From a virus: DNA of 55,469 nt. Positions 2,615 through 23,273 of the stretch are shown here, in pieces. How positions within the stretch are numbered: position 1 is the first letter of the stretch; each line of letters begins with the position of its first letter. A model generated the notes under the pieces. The model worked only from the letters and a program-made list of their open reading frames with translations, was not told the origin of the DNA and ran no database searches. The DNA lies in IMG/VR virus record IMGVR_UViG_3300050121_000180, positions 1 through 55,469 of that record, one strand, 5' to 3'. Both the position numbers and the translations under genes were made by a program.

Positions 2615-3090
2615 AGCGTGAATCCTAATGTATTGAAATTAGAAAAAAGCATACGCTAAGAAAAGCTGCAAAGCAAATGATGTTTTACAAAGAAAAGCGC
2701 CCTAAACGGGGAGGGCGAATAGGGCGCTTTGATGCCTTCCGCCAGCTCTATGAACAAACGCGAAAGGACTTAATAAAACCAAGATAAGTAACCTTTAGGA
2801 GAAACTCAACTTGGAAACAGATGGGCTAATGATAGTCCCTGTTTTTATAATTGGTGCCTACGCATCGAAAGAATTTTTAACGACTAGCGTTGCGTAGGGC
2901 TTTGTTTAGTTTCCCTGTTACCAGTTAAACCACAGTAGGTTACCAATCTCCTACCATTTTAACCTTCGAAATTAAGCGAAGGTTGGGTGCGGGTCACTAA
3001 TCCCCATTACGCTCCAAGACTTTACGTCATTTGCGAAGTGAAATTGCATATTACATTAAGATTGTTTATTGGGCAAATATTTTATTGACC
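2615..3090. other. 476-bp intergenic region rich in hairpins, no supported gene
   Basis: No convincing coding frame is seen on either strand. The region holds several perfect or near-perfect hairpins: AAAGCGCCCTA/TAGGGCGCTTT (2694-2704 with 2720-2730); AAACAG..CTGTTT with an inner GGGCT/AGTCC stem followed by a T-run (about 2814-2846); CCTACGCA/TGCGTAGG (2867-2900); and AACCTTCG/CGAAGGTT (2961-2968 with 2977-2984). I searched for tRNA cloverleafs and found none. It may carry regulatory RNA, terminators or a replication signal. Confidence 0.5.
2694..2730. terminator. Strong hairpin upstream of the beta-helix gene
   Basis: The 11-pair stem AAAGCGCCCTA/TAGGGCGCTTT has a 15-base loop. In the minus direction it is followed by TTTTCTTT, so it probably terminates leftward transcription arriving from the small-gene operon and isolates the beta-helix gene at 2614. 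Confidence 0.7.
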
Positions 3091-3283
3091 CTATGGAAGT
3101 TTCCTTGCATCCCTGCATCGCCCGCAAGCTTTATTGACAAGGCGGGAAAAGGTTTCTCCACAATAAAAACATTCACCCACTTCCCCCAATTGGAATCTTG
3201 CTTGCTGCATCCCTAAGGTTTTGAACGGTTGTATCCCGTTGCAAGCTTTCATTCATTTCAGCTATATCTAATTCATCAGGCAT
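3091..3283 (-). pseudogene. TraR/DksA-family C4 zinc-finger protein, frameshifted
   Basis: On the minus strand the first frame reads MPDELDIAEMN... to ...DAASKIPIGG, then stops at 3173. The +1 frame continues as GECFYCGETFSRLVNKACGR with a second CxxC and ends at 3091 after ...RDARKLP. Together they match the TraR/DksA zinc-finger layout (short acidic helix, 'IP.G..GEC..CG', 'R......C..CR'). The two frames meet at a run of five G residues (3187-3183, minus strand). Removing one G gives a continuous 63-residue protein. TraR-type phage proteins bind RNA polymerase in the secondary channel. The break may be a real mutation, a homopolymer sequencing error or, less likely, a programmed shift. Confidence 0.8.
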
Positions 3284-3316
3284 GTGAGCTTTCGTTGTTA
3301 GGTTTGGGGGAGTATA

Positions 3317-3544
3317 TTAAACTTTGCTAGTTTGTGCAAGTTCCGCAATGGTTGTGGTTGGCAGGGTTGATAGAAAGTTTAAGTACCTTAAAGACCAAAG
3401 TTTCATTCTGTCCATCATCAGTGCATCCTCAATATTTGAAAATGTCATAGGGTATAGTTTGTAATATGCAAAGCTAACTAAGTCAGTTAAATATTGTTTT
3501 TCAAACTGCAATTCTTCAATCTGAGCGTCAATTGCTTTTTTCAT
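3317..3544 (-). CDS. Small hypothetical protein (75 aa)
   Basis: This 75-residue, mainly helical protein starts with a charged helix (MKKAIDAQIEELQFEKQYL), has no cysteine motif and no membrane segment, and is not recognised. Its start overlaps the stop of the DUF551-like gene by four bases, so it belongs to the overlapping minus-strand operon 3091-5748. Confidence 0.55.
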   Translation of the reverse strand: MKKAIDAQIEELQFEKQYLTDLVSFAYYKLYPMTFSNIEDALMMDRMKLWSLRYLNFLSTLPTTTIAELAQTSKV

Positions 3545-3786
3545 ACCGTTTCCTTATCATTCTGTGGTGTGGGGAGTGCTGGTAATGGTTGCCAGTGTGT
3601 GACAAAATGCTTATATACAAATATATTCATTCCATTATCATGCCAATCCCATTCTTCTGAAAAATTAGACTTTTTTCGGTTATATATTCGTATTGGATTT
3701 ACCTTAGTTCCAACCTTACATAAAACTAACTCAAGCATATCTGGCAACCTATCATCCACACTAATCCAAGCCTGTTTACTTTTCAT
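3541..3786 (-). CDS. DUF551-like small phage protein (81 aa)
   Basis: It shows the DUF551 signature: an N-terminal W-I-S-V-x-D-x-L-P (WISVDDRLPD) and a C-terminal VTHWQPLPALP. DUF551 proteins are frequent in phage early regions; their biochemical role is unknown to me. The start overlaps the preceding gene by 11 bases, consistent with translational coupling in a small-gene operon. Confidence 0.8.
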   Translation of the reverse strand: MKSKQAWISVDDRLPDMLELVLCKVGTKVNPIRIYNRKKSNFSEEWDWHDNGMNIFVYKHFVTHWQPLPALPTPQNDKETV

Positions 3787-18296: not shown

Positions 18297-19016
18297 ATGA
18301 AACCCTTGAAAAACAACCAACCCGCCGAGAAGCCTTCGCTTCTTCATTCCGGCGAACTCGAAATTAACTCTATCTTTTATACAATTCAAGGCGAAGGACC
18401 TTTTGCAGGTCGACGAGCTTTGTTTATTAGACTCGCTGGCTGCAACCTTCAATGTTCAGGTTGTGACACTGAATACTCTAATCGAACCTTTATGAATCTT
18501 GGTGTAATCCATCGTAAGTTTACGCAAGCATATAAAAACCAAAAAATAGTTCAGAACCCTTACACAGATTCAAAAATGTTAGTGGTCATCACTGGGGGCG
18601 AGCCGTTCCGCCAAAATATTGCGCCGCTTATTGAAATGTTATTGGACGAGGATTGCGATGTTCAAATTGAAACAAACGGAACATTGTACCAAGAACTCCC
18701 GTTTCATAATATTACAATTGTTTGCAGCCCAAAAACGGGCCGTATTAATGAAAAACTTTATCCGCACATTGACGCGTTCAAATACGTAATTACAGCGGGG
18801 CAAGTTGATAAGGATGGTTTACCTCTAAGCGTTCTAGGGCATCCTGTTAAAAATGCGGTTGCAAAACCACGTCCAGGTTCTAAGATTTATGTTCAAGCTG
18901 CTGACGAACAGGACATCAAGTTAAACAAAGCGAACTTGATGCAAACGATTGAAAGTGTAAAGACTTTTGAATATACTTTGTGTGTACAACTTCATAAAAT
19001 TGCGGGTTTAGATTAA
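18297..19016 (+). CDS. queE: QueE, 7-carboxy-7-deazaguanine synthase (radical SAM, 239 aa)
   Basis: The radical-SAM cluster is CNLQCSGC (C49, C53, C56) after IQGEGPFAGRRALFIRLAG, the hallmark substrate-binding start of QueE; the SAM-binding GGEP is at 100-103. QueE converts carboxytetrahydropterin to CDG, the third step of preQ0 synthesis. The ATG at 18297 lies within the AAAAGGATGA ribosome site itself, so the true start may be TTG at 18306, nine bases on and correctly spaced from AGGA. It is followed by queC after 11 bases. Confidence 0.92.
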   Translation: MKPLKNNQPAEKPSLLHSGELEINSIFYTIQGEGPFAGRRALFIRLAGCNLQCSGCDTEYSNRTFMNLGVIHRKFTQAYKNQKIVQNPYTDSKMLVVITGGEPFRQNIAPLIEMLLDEDCDVQIETNGTLYQELPFHNITIVCSPKTGRINEKLYPHIDAFKYVITAGQVDKDGLPLSVLGHPVKNAVAKPRPGSKIYVQAADEQDIKLNKANLMQTIESVKTFEYTLCVQLHKIAGLD

Positions 19017-19027
19017 GGGGATTTAAA

Positions 19028-19810
19028 ATGGAAGAAAGAAATAAAACTAAGGTTCTAGTTGTGGCTTCAGGCGGCCAAGACTCAACCACTTGTCTTTTTT
19101 GGGCAAAACAACGTTTCGACGAAGTCTTTGCTGTAACTTATAATTATGGTCAACGTCATGTAATTGAGATAGAAGCTGCAAAAGAAGTTGCTATTCTTGC
19201 AGGCGTTAGAAAACATTTTATCGTAAATGTTGGCCCTATTCTTGTGGGTAGCTCGCCTTTAGTAAGTTCAAACAATTTGGAGCAGTACAAAGACATGCAC
19301 TCACTGCCGGGCGGGCTAGAGAAAACGTTTGTTCCAGGCCGTAATTTGCTGTTCCTAACGTTAGCTGCAAACTTAGCTTACACGCTAGGAATAACGGATG
19401 TTGTAACGGGCGTATGTGAAGAAGATTCTGGCGGGTATCCTGATTGCCGTCAAGCATTTATTGATTCAGCACAAAAAGCAATTATTGAAGGTTTTTCGTA
19501 TAACAGCGAAGATGATTTTACAAAGTTTAAAATTCATACACCTTTGATGTATCTAACAAAAGCTCAAACTGTTGAACTCGCTGTTGAACTAGGTCAAGAC
19601 TGCTGGGACGCATTAGCCCACACTCACACCTCATATGACGGTAAATATCCGCCTACTGGAAACGACCATGCAACTTTGCTTCGCGCCAAAGGGTTCTTTG
19701 AAGCAGGTCGTCCAGACCCGTTAGTCCTTCGCGCTGTAATGGAAGGATTGATGGAATTGCCTGAAACAGATAATTATAAACCTGCTCCAGCACCTTTTCA
19801 GCTGTATTAA
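19028..19810 (+). CDS. queC: QueC-like ATP-dependent synthetase lacking the zinc cysteines (260 aa)
   Basis: The PP-loop SGGQDS (14-19), VTYNYGQRH, VPGRNLLFL (102-110) and EEDSGGYPDCR identify QueC, which normally turns CDG into ADG and then preQ0 using ATP and ammonia. The C-terminal zinc site of the family (C-x7/8-C-x2-C-x2-C before RxxGF) aligns without gaps here, but the four cysteines are S202, T210, D213 and T216. Fold and active loop are otherwise intact. The enzyme could be active without zinc, or could act differently, for example stopping at the amide ADG. Confidence 0.88.
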   Translation: MEERNKTKVLVVASGGQDSTTCLFWAKQRFDEVFAVTYNYGQRHVIEIEAAKEVAILAGVRKHFIVNVGPILVGSSPLVSSNNLEQYKDMHSLPGGLEKTFVPGRNLLFLTLAANLAYTLGITDVVTGVCEEDSGGYPDCRQAFIDSAQKAIIEGFSYNSEDDFTKFKIHTPLMYLTKAQTVELAVELGQDCWDALAHTHTSYDGKYPPTGNDHATLLRAKGFFEAGRPDPLVLRAVMEGLMELPETDNYKPAPAPFQLY

Positions 19811-19844: not shown

Positions 19845-19879
19845 TACACGGTACAACGTGAAAAGGTAAACATATAAAT
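19828..19879 (+). promoter_or_regulatory. Hairpin that can sequester the HNH gene start
   Basis: ATTTATATGTTTA (19828-19840) is perfectly complementary to TAAACATATAAAT (19867-19879), whose last two bases are the AT of the HNH start codon. An inner CACG/CGTG pair extends the structure, and the AAAAGG ribosome site lies next to the right arm. Read-through RNA from queC would fold the start away. Confidence 0.75.
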
Positions 19880-20405
19880 GGCAACTTTATTATTTCGGGA
19901 TTTAATTGATGTAGCTCCTGCTCCTATTCGTGATTATGAATTTAAAGATATACGAATTAAAAATAATTTATTTCGTATATATACGGATGGGGCAGTTTGG
20001 GATATTTCGTATTCGAGATGGCGTGAACCTGACATTGATAAGGACGGGTATAGAATCCACCATCTTGGAAGTAAAACTGTTAAATTACATAGACTAATAT
20101 TAATGGTTTATAGTCGACCACCTAGGCAAAGTGAACAAGGTAGACATCTAGATGGGGACCCTTCTAACAATGATAAGTCAAATTTAGAATGGGGAACAGG
20201 AAAACAAAATTGGATAGACAGACGTTTGCACGGCAGGGAAAGTGCTGAATGGCGAAGGCTCCTTACTAACGAGCAAGCTTTAGCAATCTATAACGATCCT
20301 CGACCTGAAAACGATATTGCAAAAGCATATGATATTTCACGAAATAGTATTATGGCAATTAAAGAAAAATTAACATATAAGGATATTCATAATGAAACCC
20401 TCTAA
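19878..20405 (+). CDS. HNH homing-type endonuclease 1 (175 aa)
   Basis: The central part has the HNH_3-type pattern: KTVKLHRLILMVYSRPP, then GRHLDGDPSNNDKSNLEWGT, where H-x-D-G-D and N-x-x-x-N-L-x-W-G-T are the metal-binding and core residues. The C-terminal part has a helix-turn-helix for site recognition (NDIAKAYDISRNSIMAIKEK). It is inserted between queC and queD, has its own promoter and hairpin, and overlaps queD by 14 bases. It is a selfish mobile gene, probably not part of the modification chemistry. Confidence 0.85.
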   Translation: MATLLFRDLIDVAPAPIRDYEFKDIRIKNNLFRIYTDGAVWDISYSRWREPDIDKDGYRIHHLGSKTVKLHRLILMVYSRPPRQSEQGRHLDGDPSNNDKSNLEWGTGKQNWIDRRLHGRESAEWRRLLTNEQALAIYNDPRPENDIAKAYDISRNSIMAIKEKLTYKDIHNETL

Positions 20406-20832
20406 TAAAATAACAGCGGACAGGTATCATGACTTTTCATACGGGCATCGTGTATATCAACATGAGTCATCTTGTTCACATTTGCACGGTCACAACGGGA
20501 GAGTTCACTTTACAATTACAGCCCCAGCATTGGACACAATTGGGCGAGTTTTGGACTTTTCCGTTATCAAAAGTTTATTATGCTCGTTCTTAGAAGATGA
20601 ATGGGACCACAAATTTTTGGTTTGGGAAAAAGACCCTTGGGCTCCAATTTTAAAAGAGCTTGACCCTGAAGGAACAGTAATTGTTACTTTCAATCCAACC
20701 GCTGAACAACTCGCGCAATACCTTGTTGAAGTTGTTGGCCCGAAAAGATTAGTTGGAACCGGAGCTGTTTTAATAAGTGCAAGATTTGAAGAAACTCGCA
20801 AATGTGCCGCATCATTCATTAAAGGGGAATAA
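20392..20832 (+). CDS. queD: QueD, 6-carboxytetrahydropterin synthase (146 aa)
   Basis: Zinc ligands H19, H32 and H34 lie in FSYGHRVYQHESSC and HLHGHNGRVH, with the catalytic cysteine at C28. WDHKFL carries the second catalytic His/Asp pair, and a glutamate in RFEETRKCAASF is the substrate anchor. It converts 7,8-dihydroneopterin triphosphate into CPH4, the second step of preQ0 synthesis. AAGGATATTCATA-ATG gives a fair ribosome site inside the HNH gene. It is followed immediately by the GTP cyclohydrolase fusion. Confidence 0.92.
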   Translation: MKPSNKITADRYHDFSYGHRVYQHESSCSHLHGHNGRVHFTITAPALDTIGRVLDFSVIKSLLCSFLEDEWDHKFLVWEKDPWAPILKELDPEGTVIVTFNPTAEQLAQYLVEVVGPKRLVGTGAVLISARFEETRKCAASFIKGE

Positions 20833-20833
20833 A

Positions 20834-21766
20834 GTGAGCAATAAGTTACATCTAACAAATTTCAATATTAATCAATTGGCAGTATTGCTCAACGAACATA
20901 TTTTATCTTTACACTTGAGCCAGCCTGGTAAATTTGGGCTTAACATTTATGCAGTTCCACGCGGGGGAATTCCGGCAGCCTACGCGCTAAAAGCAGTTAA
21001 CCAAGATTATTATCATATTGTGGACGACCCTAAACAAGCGGATATTGCAGTTGACGATATTATTGATAGTGGTGAAACTGCGAAACGCATGATGTCCGAG
21101 CACTTACTTCCAACTTATGCACTGATTGATAAGGCTGGGGTTAGCGGAGCTGTATTTACATTGGGCGATATTACAAAATGGATTGTTTGGCCATGGGAAA
21201 CGTCTAACGAACAAACAGAAGGCGTTGAAGCAAACGTTACTCGCATCCTTCAGTATATTGGGGAAGATGCTGGGCGCGAAGGTTTGTTGGAAACGCCAAG
21301 ACGTTTTAACAAAGCTCTAGGGCAATGGTTTAGCGGTTATGGTAAAGACCCAAAAGACATTTTAAAAGTGTTTGAGGATGGGGCTGAAAGCTATGACCAA
21401 ATGGTTATTGTTAAAGATATCCCAATTTACTCAAAATGCGAACATCATATTGCTGATATCTTCGGTACTGCTACAATCGCCTACATTCCGAACGGTAAAA
21501 TAGTTGGCCTTAGTAAGTTGTCACGTCTTGCGGATATTTTTGCTAGACGTTTACAAGTGCAAGAGCGTTTAACCCAGCAAATCGCGGATGCCCTTGAAGA
21601 ACATTTAGCGCCTAAAGGCGTAGGTGTTTTGATTAAAGCTAGGCACATGTGCATGGAATCACGTGGTCTATGCCAACAAGGACATTATACTATTACATGC
21701 GCTTTGCACGGAGTTTTGAAAAATGATGTTGCAGCTCGTGCTGAGTTTATGGCTTTGGCAAAATAA
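20834..21766 (+). CDS. Fusion: Gpt-like purine phosphoribosyltransferase + GTP cyclohydrolase I (310 aa)
   Basis: Domain 1 (residues 1-125) has YAVPRGGIPAA (RGG 43-45), the PRPP loop VDDIIDSGET (73-82) and KWIVWPWET (115-123), which matches the base-binding tail of xanthine-guanine phosphoribosyltransferase (Gpt, 'WIEQPWD'). Domain 2 (130-310) is a complete FolE: GREGLLETPRRF, SKCEHHIADIFG (C202, H205), VGLSKLSRL, QVQERLTQQI, HMCMESRG (C273). GTG at 20834 with AAAGGGG upstream is the chosen start; an ATG at 20777 would overlap queD by 56 bases. FolE supplies dihydroneopterin triphosphate, the first step; the fused salvage domain is unusual. Confidence 0.88.
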   Translation: MSNKLHLTNFNINQLAVLLNEHILSLHLSQPGKFGLNIYAVPRGGIPAAYALKAVNQDYYHIVDDPKQADIAVDDIIDSGETAKRMMSEHLLPTYALIDKAGVSGAVFTLGDITKWIVWPWETSNEQTEGVEANVTRILQYIGEDAGREGLLETPRRFNKALGQWFSGYGKDPKDILKVFEDGAESYDQMVIVKDIPIYSKCEHHIADIFGTATIAYIPNGKIVGLSKLSRLADIFARRLQVQERLTQQIADALEEHLAPKGVGVLIKARHMCMESRGLCQQGHYTITCALHGVLKNDVAARAEFMALAK

Positions 21767-21767
21767 G

Positions 21768-22325
21768 ATGAAATTTTGCAAGGTTTGTAATAAAGACTTA
21801 CCTTCAAGTTTATTCAAAATTAAAGGTAAGGTTGGAACTTGCATTCCTTGCATGAAACTTCGAAAATCGAATTATTACTTTGATAATAAAGAAGAGATTT
21901 CAAAGAAGCAATCTGAATACCAAAAGAACAGTTTGAAAGTGAAAGCATATCAGGCTGCTTATTTTCAGAAAAATAAAGAGGTAAATGCTAGGGCAACTAA
22001 GAAATGGAGAGATAATCATCCTTTACAGCATCAACAAATTACAAAACAAGATTATTTAAAAAGAAAGAATTCTTGGCCGGATTATGTTGCAACAAGACGA
22101 GCGAAATTACTTCAAGCAATTCCAAAATGGGCGAACAAAGAGAAAGTAAAATCCATATACTTAAAAGCGGCACAATTAACGCTTGAAACCGGAATCCAAC
22201 ATCATGTTGACCACATAGTACCTCTAAATTCAAAGTTAGTTTGTGGGCTACATTGGGAAGGTAACTTAGAACCTTTGCCCGCTTTAGAGAATATGTTAAA
22301 GGGTAATAGATATGAAACTGAGTAA
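21768..22325 (+). CDS. HNH endonuclease 2 with N-terminal zinc ribbon (185 aa)
   Basis: An N-terminal zinc module (KFCKVCNKDL ... GTCIPCMK) and Lys-rich helices lead to the HNH core QHHVDHIVPLNSKLVCGLHW, then GNLEPLPALENMLKGNRY (H..D H ... N...P....N...K). It starts one base after the FolE stop. It is a second mobile endonuclease within the same modification cluster, between folE and dpdA. Confidence 0.85.
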   Translation: MKFCKVCNKDLPSSLFKIKGKVGTCIPCMKLRKSNYYFDNKEEISKKQSEYQKNSLKVKAYQAAYFQKNKEVNARATKKWRDNHPLQHQQITKQDYLKRKNSWPDYVATRRAKLLQAIPKWANKEKVKSIYLKAAQLTLETGIQHHVDHIVPLNSKLVCGLHWEGNLEPLPALENMLKGNRYETE

Positions 22326-22340
22326 CAAGAGAGCGCAACG

Positions 22341-23273
22341 ATGAATCTTTTTGTCGCTGCTGTTTACAGAAACGGATACCGAGCGGGGGGCGAAGAAAAA
22401 GGCCGCTATGCAAAGTTAACTGACCACGAAAAAGAATGTGTTAATGCAAGTAAGAATCTGCTGGAGTCGTTTCACTATGTTGAAGGGCAAATGTATGTTG
22501 ACGCAATGCGTTTGGATGGGGCGAAGGTCTTTCTTGACTCGGGGGCTTTCTCCGCATTCACATTAGGCGCAACAATCGACCTTCCCCATTATTGTGACTA
22601 CATTAAAAAGAACGAGGATATCATTCGGAAAGAAGATGGAGTTGTCATGGCATCTGTTTTGGATGGTATTGGCGACCCGTTAAAGACTTATCAAAATCAG
22701 CTTGCAATGGAAGAACTAGGTGCGAAACCTTTGCCCTGCTTTCACTATGGTGAAGACGAGCGTTATTTGGAATGGTATGTTAAGAATTATGACTATATTA
22801 CATTAGGCGGGATGGTTGGACGAAGTGCTGTAGTTTTGATGCAGTGGCTTGACCGTATTTGGGAAAAGTATCTAACAGACGGAACTGGCAAACCCCGTTT
22901 AAAAGTTCACGCTTTTGGTATTACTGCAATAAGAATTATGGAGCGATATCCATGGTTTTCGGTTGACTCTAGCTCGTGGATTCAGACCGCAGCGTTTGGT
23001 TCAATTGTAACTCCAAAACACGGAACAATTAGTGTATCATCCCAATCACCTGCTCGCCATGTAGCTGGTCAACATGCTACAACATTGAGCCCTATTGAAC
23101 AAGATTGTGTTTTCAAAATGTTGGAGGATGCAGGCTTTACATATGAGCGTTTGTCCACAGTATATGAAAGTCGAGCAGCGTTTAATATTCACAGTTACGG
23201 GTTGATTGCTGCAATGATTAACGCAAATAAAAATCTAACTTTTAAAGCGCATGTGCAAGAATTATTTGATTAG
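22341..23273 (+). CDS. dpdA: DpdA, 7-deazaguanine DNA transglycosylase (310 aa)
   Basis: It shows the TGT-like fold signatures of phage DpdA: FLDSGAFSAF with D66 as general acid/base, GGMVGRS (substrate loop), VHAFGITA and FSVDSSSW with D209 as likely nucleophile. DpdA exchanges guanine in DNA for a 7-deazaguanine base such as preQ0, releasing free guanine. It lacks the tRNA-binding zinc domain of bacterial Tgt. It ends the que cluster, and its presence turns the pathway from tRNA queuosine toward DNA modification. Confidence 0.9.
   Translation: MNLFVAAVYRNGYRAGGEEKGRYAKLTDHEKECVNASKNLLESFHYVEGQMYVDAMRLDGAKVFLDSGAFSAFTLGATIDLPHYCDYIKKNEDIIRKEDGVVMASVLDGIGDPLKTYQNQLAMEELGAKPLPCFHYGEDERYLEWYVKNYDYITLGGMVGRSAVVLMQWLDRIWEKYLTDGTGKPRLKVHAFGITAIRIMERYPWFSVDSSSWIQTAAFGSIVTPKHGTISVSSQSPARHVAGQHATTLSPIEQDCVFKMLEDAGFTYERLSTVYESRAAFNIHSYGLIAAMINANKNLTFKAHVQELFD

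Follow-up and report, generated by a model that had tools for sequence, protein, structure and literature searches.

A phage QueC subfamily without the hallmark zinc cysteines is predicted to make preQ0

What becomes of an enzyme when every ligand of its hallmark metal site has been replaced? A 2026 survey of the QueC family describes the C(x)8CxxCxxC motif as its hallmark and zinc as required for function (PMC13329287), and the virus analysed here encodes a QueC-family protein that has none of the four cysteines. The window, by which we mean the whole 55,469-base stretch of DNA that was analysed (an IMG/VR record), carries tail sheath, portal, head and terminase genes. Its queC lies in a cluster with the order queE, queC, HNH endonuclease, queD, folE, endonuclease VII-like gene and dpdA, downstream of which come a sliding clamp and a DNA polymerase. 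The cluster and the relevant parts of QueC are as follows.

18297..19016, + strand: QueE (CDG synthase), radical SAM; phrog_2076, 6.5e-50
19028..19810, + strand: QueC-family protein, 260 aa, without all four zinc cysteines; PF06508, 1e-55; phrog_1550, 1e-61; TIGR00364, above cut-off; AF2 model
19067..19084, + strand: ATP-binding loop SGGQDS, QueC residues 14-19, invariant in the alignment
19628..19696, + strand: former zinc segment, QueC residues 201-223, TSYDGKYPPTGNDHATLLRAKGF; from alignments, gap-free against locus L097
19703..19777, + strand: C-terminal tail, QueC residues 226-250 (AGRPDPLVLRAVMEGLMELPETDNY), in phages confined to the cysteine-less state
19878-20405: HNH endonuclease between queC and queD
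20392..20832, + strand: QueD; PF01242, 2.5e-21; phrog_2389
20777..21766, + strand: FolE (GTP cyclohydrolase I) with a phosphoribosyltransferase-like N-terminal region; PF01227, 1.9e-67; phrog_2197 and phrog_8995
21723-22325: endonuclease VII-like gene between folE and dpdA
22341..23273, + strand: DpdA, DNA guanine transglycosylase; phrog_887, 1.7e-80

The genes queD, queE and folE are co-encoded with queC here and in most related loci, and the DpdA is 65% identical to that of phage Seurat and 60% to that of phage Iggy. The folE reading frame, as called at 20777..21766, opens upstream at a GTG, and the true start may be later. Its N-terminal region, phosphoribosyltransferase-like and about 140 aa long, is also fused in loci L030 and L088, and in L097 the corresponding part is a separate gene (2728-3153) upstream of folE. 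The HNH and endonuclease VII-like genes that interrupt the cluster resemble homing-type insertions.

The assignment to QueC is clear at the level of both profile and fold. The protein scores 188.9 bits against PF06508 (threshold 22) and 176.6 bits against the NCBI QueC equivalog TIGR00364 (cut-off 150.3), and its AF2 model (pLDDT 93.8) finds the QueC structures 2pg3 and 3bl5 as best PDB matches. In alignments, the four zinc columns are occupied by S202, T210, D213 and T216 within a full-length protein of 260 aa, which bears out the first-pass annotation in its central claim that the cysteines were replaced and not truncated. That annotation had also described a gap-free C-x7-C-x2-C-x2-C spacing as the family motif. 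The spacing itself stands against the cysteine-bearing sister group, as the four-cysteine protein of L097 (HTCYNGQYPPCGHCHACLLRQKGF) aligns with the window protein (HTSYDGKYPPTGNDHATLLRAKGF) without a gap, but it does not hold for the family: the canonical spacing, read in Bacillus subtilis 3BL5 and Erwinia 2PG3, is C-x8-C-x2-C-x2-C. The window protein has one residue fewer than these two between the first and second zinc sites, so that the hallmark motif is absent in spacing (x7) as well as in its cysteines.

The catalytic residues, in contrast to the zinc ligands, are all retained. Four residues are essential in Escherichia coli QueC, namely Y35, R99, Y131 and Y189 (PMC13329287), and their counterparts Y40, R105, Y137 and Y203 are invariant in every row of the alignment, whether phage cysteine-less, bacterial cysteine-less or four-cysteine. 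The same holds in all groups for the wider set of residues in YxQxHxxE, VPxRN, YPDC and the conserved lysine (Y40, Q42, H44, E47, R105, N106, Y137, D139, C140 and K178). Y203, the counterpart of the essential Tyr189, lies inside the former zinc segment itself. This conservation bears directly on whether the gene could be a decaying or inactive copy in a phage that uses host preQ0, a way of life with a parallel in DpdA-only phages, which can depend on host precursors (PMC6884629). Given that every catalytic residue persists among proteins 48-63% identical to that of the window, and that dozens of genomes carry an intact copy, we consider decay extremely unlikely.

The loss is neither a chance event nor a sequencing error, as dozens of phages share this replaced motif. 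Cysteine-less QueC occurs in phages of at least eight bacterial genera, including phage Iggy, with hosts among Stenotrophomonas, Variovorax, Pseudomonas, Rhizobium, Aminobacter, Acinetobacter, Vibrio, Edwardsiella, Dinoroseobacter, Sphingomonas and cyanobacteria. Scans of viral contigs gave many more, with at least 119 matches in the scan that used the loop motif only. A paper on a Sphingomonas phage labels its QueC canonical, and that protein is cysteine-less by the present alignment; for Iggy, we found no remark on the missing cysteines in openly readable published work. More generally, our search of the openly accessible literature, which leaves priority uncertain, returned no report of a cysteine-less QueC.

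Among 89 distinct cysteine-less phage proteins, site 202 is occupied by S, A or G, site 210 by T, V, I or L and rarely others, site 213 by D or N, and site 216 by T, N or S; N213 is always paired with N216, and D213 nearly always with T216 or S216. With S, A or G at the first position and often V, I or L at the second, the site can hardly bind metal in the old zinc fashion. Zinc or another metal could still be held by other residues, such as H200, H214 and the invariant D204 acting together with D/N213, and the two histidines are indeed conserved in the phage group (88/89 and 89/89, respectively). Both are, however, already present in the four-cysteine sisters L097, L088 and L113 and are thus not new ligands. 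Moreover, A, V, I or L is frequent at positions 202 and 210, and in a bacterial cysteine-less lineage the four sites read D, R/K/Q, N and S. A relocated metal site is therefore quite unlikely in our judgement, and we infer that metal is absent from the cysteine-less QueC proteins, of which those in phages can reasonably be taken to fold without zinc. General avoidance of zinc by the window phage was considered and rejected: FolE still has CEHH and a later Cys (HMCMESRG), and the His residues of QueD are likewise in place, all of which we take to be zinc ligands.

The first-pass annotation had proposed that the loss may mark a phage subfamily, and alignment and tree support this grouping for dozens of phage QueC proteins. 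In a tree built without the zinc segment and the C terminus, the cysteine-less phages are nested inside a cysteine-bearing clade. Nested in turn within the cysteine-less group (support 100/94) is L113, which has four cysteines and recurs as L114 in another metagenome (QueC at 2974-3690 in each); excluding it from the group was rejected (AU p 6.7e-6). Both adjoin a QueF with its catalytic motif. Their placement points to a swap that returned the zinc module to this lineage. A different mixed state is seen in L303, among the loop-motif matches listed, which retains a single zinc cysteine, the first (C, N, N, S), and has an altered tail; it is possibly a relic or an evolutionary intermediate.

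What takes the place of the zinc site? The window protein combines the four replaced cysteines with a conserved C-terminal tail that follows LRxxGF and in phage cysteine-less QueC has the consensus PDPLxxRAxxEGLMxLPxTxNY. All 94 cysteine-less phage proteins have this tail (92 by pattern and 2 in degraded form), against 0 of 61 four-cysteine ones; a few records among those counted are near-identical or duplicates. As the first loci had been ranked by whole-protein similarity, the comparison was repeated on loci picked solely by the loop motif. Among the matches listed, the tail is present in 75 of 79; two more stop at the end of their contig and a further two have it in altered form (one being L303), which gives 75 of the 77 that could be assessed. 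L113 and L114 have four cysteines and no tail inside the cysteine-less group, so that motif and tail seem to switch jointly, possibly as one exchanged unit, while the core of the enzyme stays the same. Confidence of the AF2 model is high throughout this part of the protein (pLDDT 95-97 over residues 201-250 and 96-97 over 221-250), which is no measure of stability without metal. We infer that the tail contacts the loop and assumes the scaffolding role of zinc.

Loss of the cysteines has also taken place in bacteria. A different replacement motif, T-D-Y-N-G ... G-K/R/Q-L-D-N-P-A-S, occurs in Adhaeribacter, in a Poribacteria genome and in a Rhodothermus genome. These proteins lack the phage tail and end in a short GW[VIL], so that the tail is not the sole route to zinc independence. 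A single clade of bacterial and phage cysteine-less QueC was rejected (AU p 0.003), and on this phylogeny the bacterial loss is separate from that in phages. In the Rhodothermus order, QueC was found in 35 of 114 genomes, as a single copy in 34 of the 35, and all four cysteines are absent from each of the 30 proteins that were fetched. QueF takes preQ0 as its substrate and reduces it. It is present in 33 of the 35 genomes with QueC as opposed to 0 of the 79 without, although these genomes are mutually related and the counts are not independent events; in 23 genomes its coordinates place it within about 2 kb of queC. QueA is widespread in the order. Since QueF depends on preQ0 and co-occurs with QueC, the cysteine-less enzyme of this order must be taken to make preQ0, unless preQ0 is imported. 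In Adhaeribacter aerolatus, an island (L211, 10258-17706) holds QueD, cysteine-less QueC, DUF6884, NurA, HerA, a DpdA-like transglycosylase and an HNH nuclease, and is possibly a DNA-modification and defence system.

The same reasoning extends to the product of the phage enzymes. At least 16 cysteine-less phage QueC loci encode a QueF with the catalytic CPKTGQPD, as checked by motif, and in three phage isolates its identity was confirmed through Pfam and PDB. A paper on Iggy names it, by its title, as a dPreQ0 phage (doi 10.1093/nar/gkad622). On the strength of the 16 QueF-bearing phage loci, this title and the invariant catalytic residues, the window enzyme most likely makes preQ0. Iggy is not in itself proof of what the phage enzyme produces, as its host is known to have a QueC of its own. 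The first-pass annotation had raised the alternative that the enzyme halts at 7-amido-7-deazaguanine (ADG), in which case DpdA would insert ADG and the DNA would contain dADG. The essential Tyr189 sits in the zinc segment, where nearby changes could affect the second, dehydrating step, and some phages do contain dADG, MED16 among them (PMC8306585), with traces in others (PMC6884629). This alternative is disfavoured by the QueF genes adjoining cysteine-less QueC in phages, by the co-occurrence of the two across the Rhodothermus order, by the invariance of Tyr203 and by the dPreQ0 of Iggy's title, and we regard it as unlikely. Beside the window cluster itself we saw neither QueF nor an amidotransferase and, under the published scheme that links gene content to the 7-deazaguanine base of a phage (PMC6884629), this leads us to expect dPreQ0 in the window DNA.

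Taken together, we think it likely that the window gene encodes a zinc-free preQ0 (7-cyano-7-deazaguanine) synthase that feeds DpdA, with the Zn(Cys)4 knot replaced by a loop and a tail. FolE, QueD and QueE, from neighbouring genes, would supply CDG; QueC, its active site whole, would convert CDG to ADG and then to preQ0 with ATP and ammonia; and DpdA would place preQ0 in the phage DNA. Where the canonical knot closes the C-terminal part of QueC, a metal-free loop and the conserved tail would here substitute for it. More broadly, and with somewhat less assurance, we lean towards the view that QueC is independent of its hallmark zinc, with the Zn(Cys)4 knot exchanged in phages for the tail as a coupled and apparently reversible unit (L113), a second loss in bacteria and intact preQ0 synthesis in both.

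This reading runs against papers from 2026, which treat the zinc motif as a hallmark and the metal as required (PMC13329287), as a large phage subfamily and a bacterial order appear to do without it and keep all known catalytic residues. Because two cysteine-less lineages keep those residues, the zinc of QueC probably serves as scaffolding and not in the chemistry. The role of the metal can now be tested through natural variants rather than destabilizing mutants, and the phage proteins would be a case in which a peptide tail has replaced a metal site. For annotation, a motif-based rule would throw out true preQ0 synthases, and a prediction of dADG in the DNA of these phages, likely wrong, is corrected.

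Among known systems, Cap9 of type IV CBASS and QatC share the QueC fold and ATP chemistry with the window protein, keep the zinc cysteines, act on proteins and have other neighbours (PMC13329287, PMC13279940). Such repurposing of the QueC family is a precedent for a protein-deazaguanylating ligase in place of a small-molecule synthase, and Cap9 is among the top structural matches of the AF2 model. The window gene, however, has queE and queD on either side within a complete pathway cluster that includes folE and dpdA, the neighbourhood examined showed neither a CD-NTase nor a qat gene, and the canonical catalytic signature, absent from QatC, is kept; together with the missing zinc cysteines, this makes a ligase very unlikely. 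The Gat-QueC of phage 9g, like the QueC of the window, feeds a DpdA, and differs in carrying a glutamine amidotransferase domain and making dG+; it reportedly did not complement an E. coli queC deletion and yet produced modified base (PMC6884629). The window protein, at 260 aa, is the QueC domain alone, and matches phrog_1550 only from position 142 onwards. Other variations on phage que clusters include a second, divergent QueC-like protein with CGICSQC and no YPDC, just 3' of a four-cysteine QueC in Vibrio phages GR7B (L016, 4887-5591) and GR11A (L017, 4866-5567), and nucleoside deoxyribosyltransferase genes inside the clusters of Erebus (L018, 5283-5669) and ZHS (L019, 7341-7751), hinting at another route for handling 7-deazaguanine nucleosides.

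Closer to the window are the QueC of Iggy, a Pseudomonas aeruginosa phage, and the four-cysteine phage proteins. Iggy QueC has the cysteine-less motif, the tail and the same order of queE, queC, queD, folE and dpdA, is about 49% identical and, at 353 aa, bears a further C-terminal extension. L097, L088 and L113, the nearest four-cysteine relatives, share the x7 spacing, the YPP loop and the pathway with the window, and differ in retaining the cysteines and lacking the tail. With canonical QueC (PF06508 cluster 1 of PMC13329287; TIGR00364; 3BL5 and 2PG3), the window protein has in common the fold, the ATP loop, YxQxHxxE, VPxRN, YPDC, the essential Tyr of the zinc segment and the pathway neighbours; it departs from it in having zero of the four zinc cysteines, a gap between the first two sites that is one residue shorter, and an added conserved tail.
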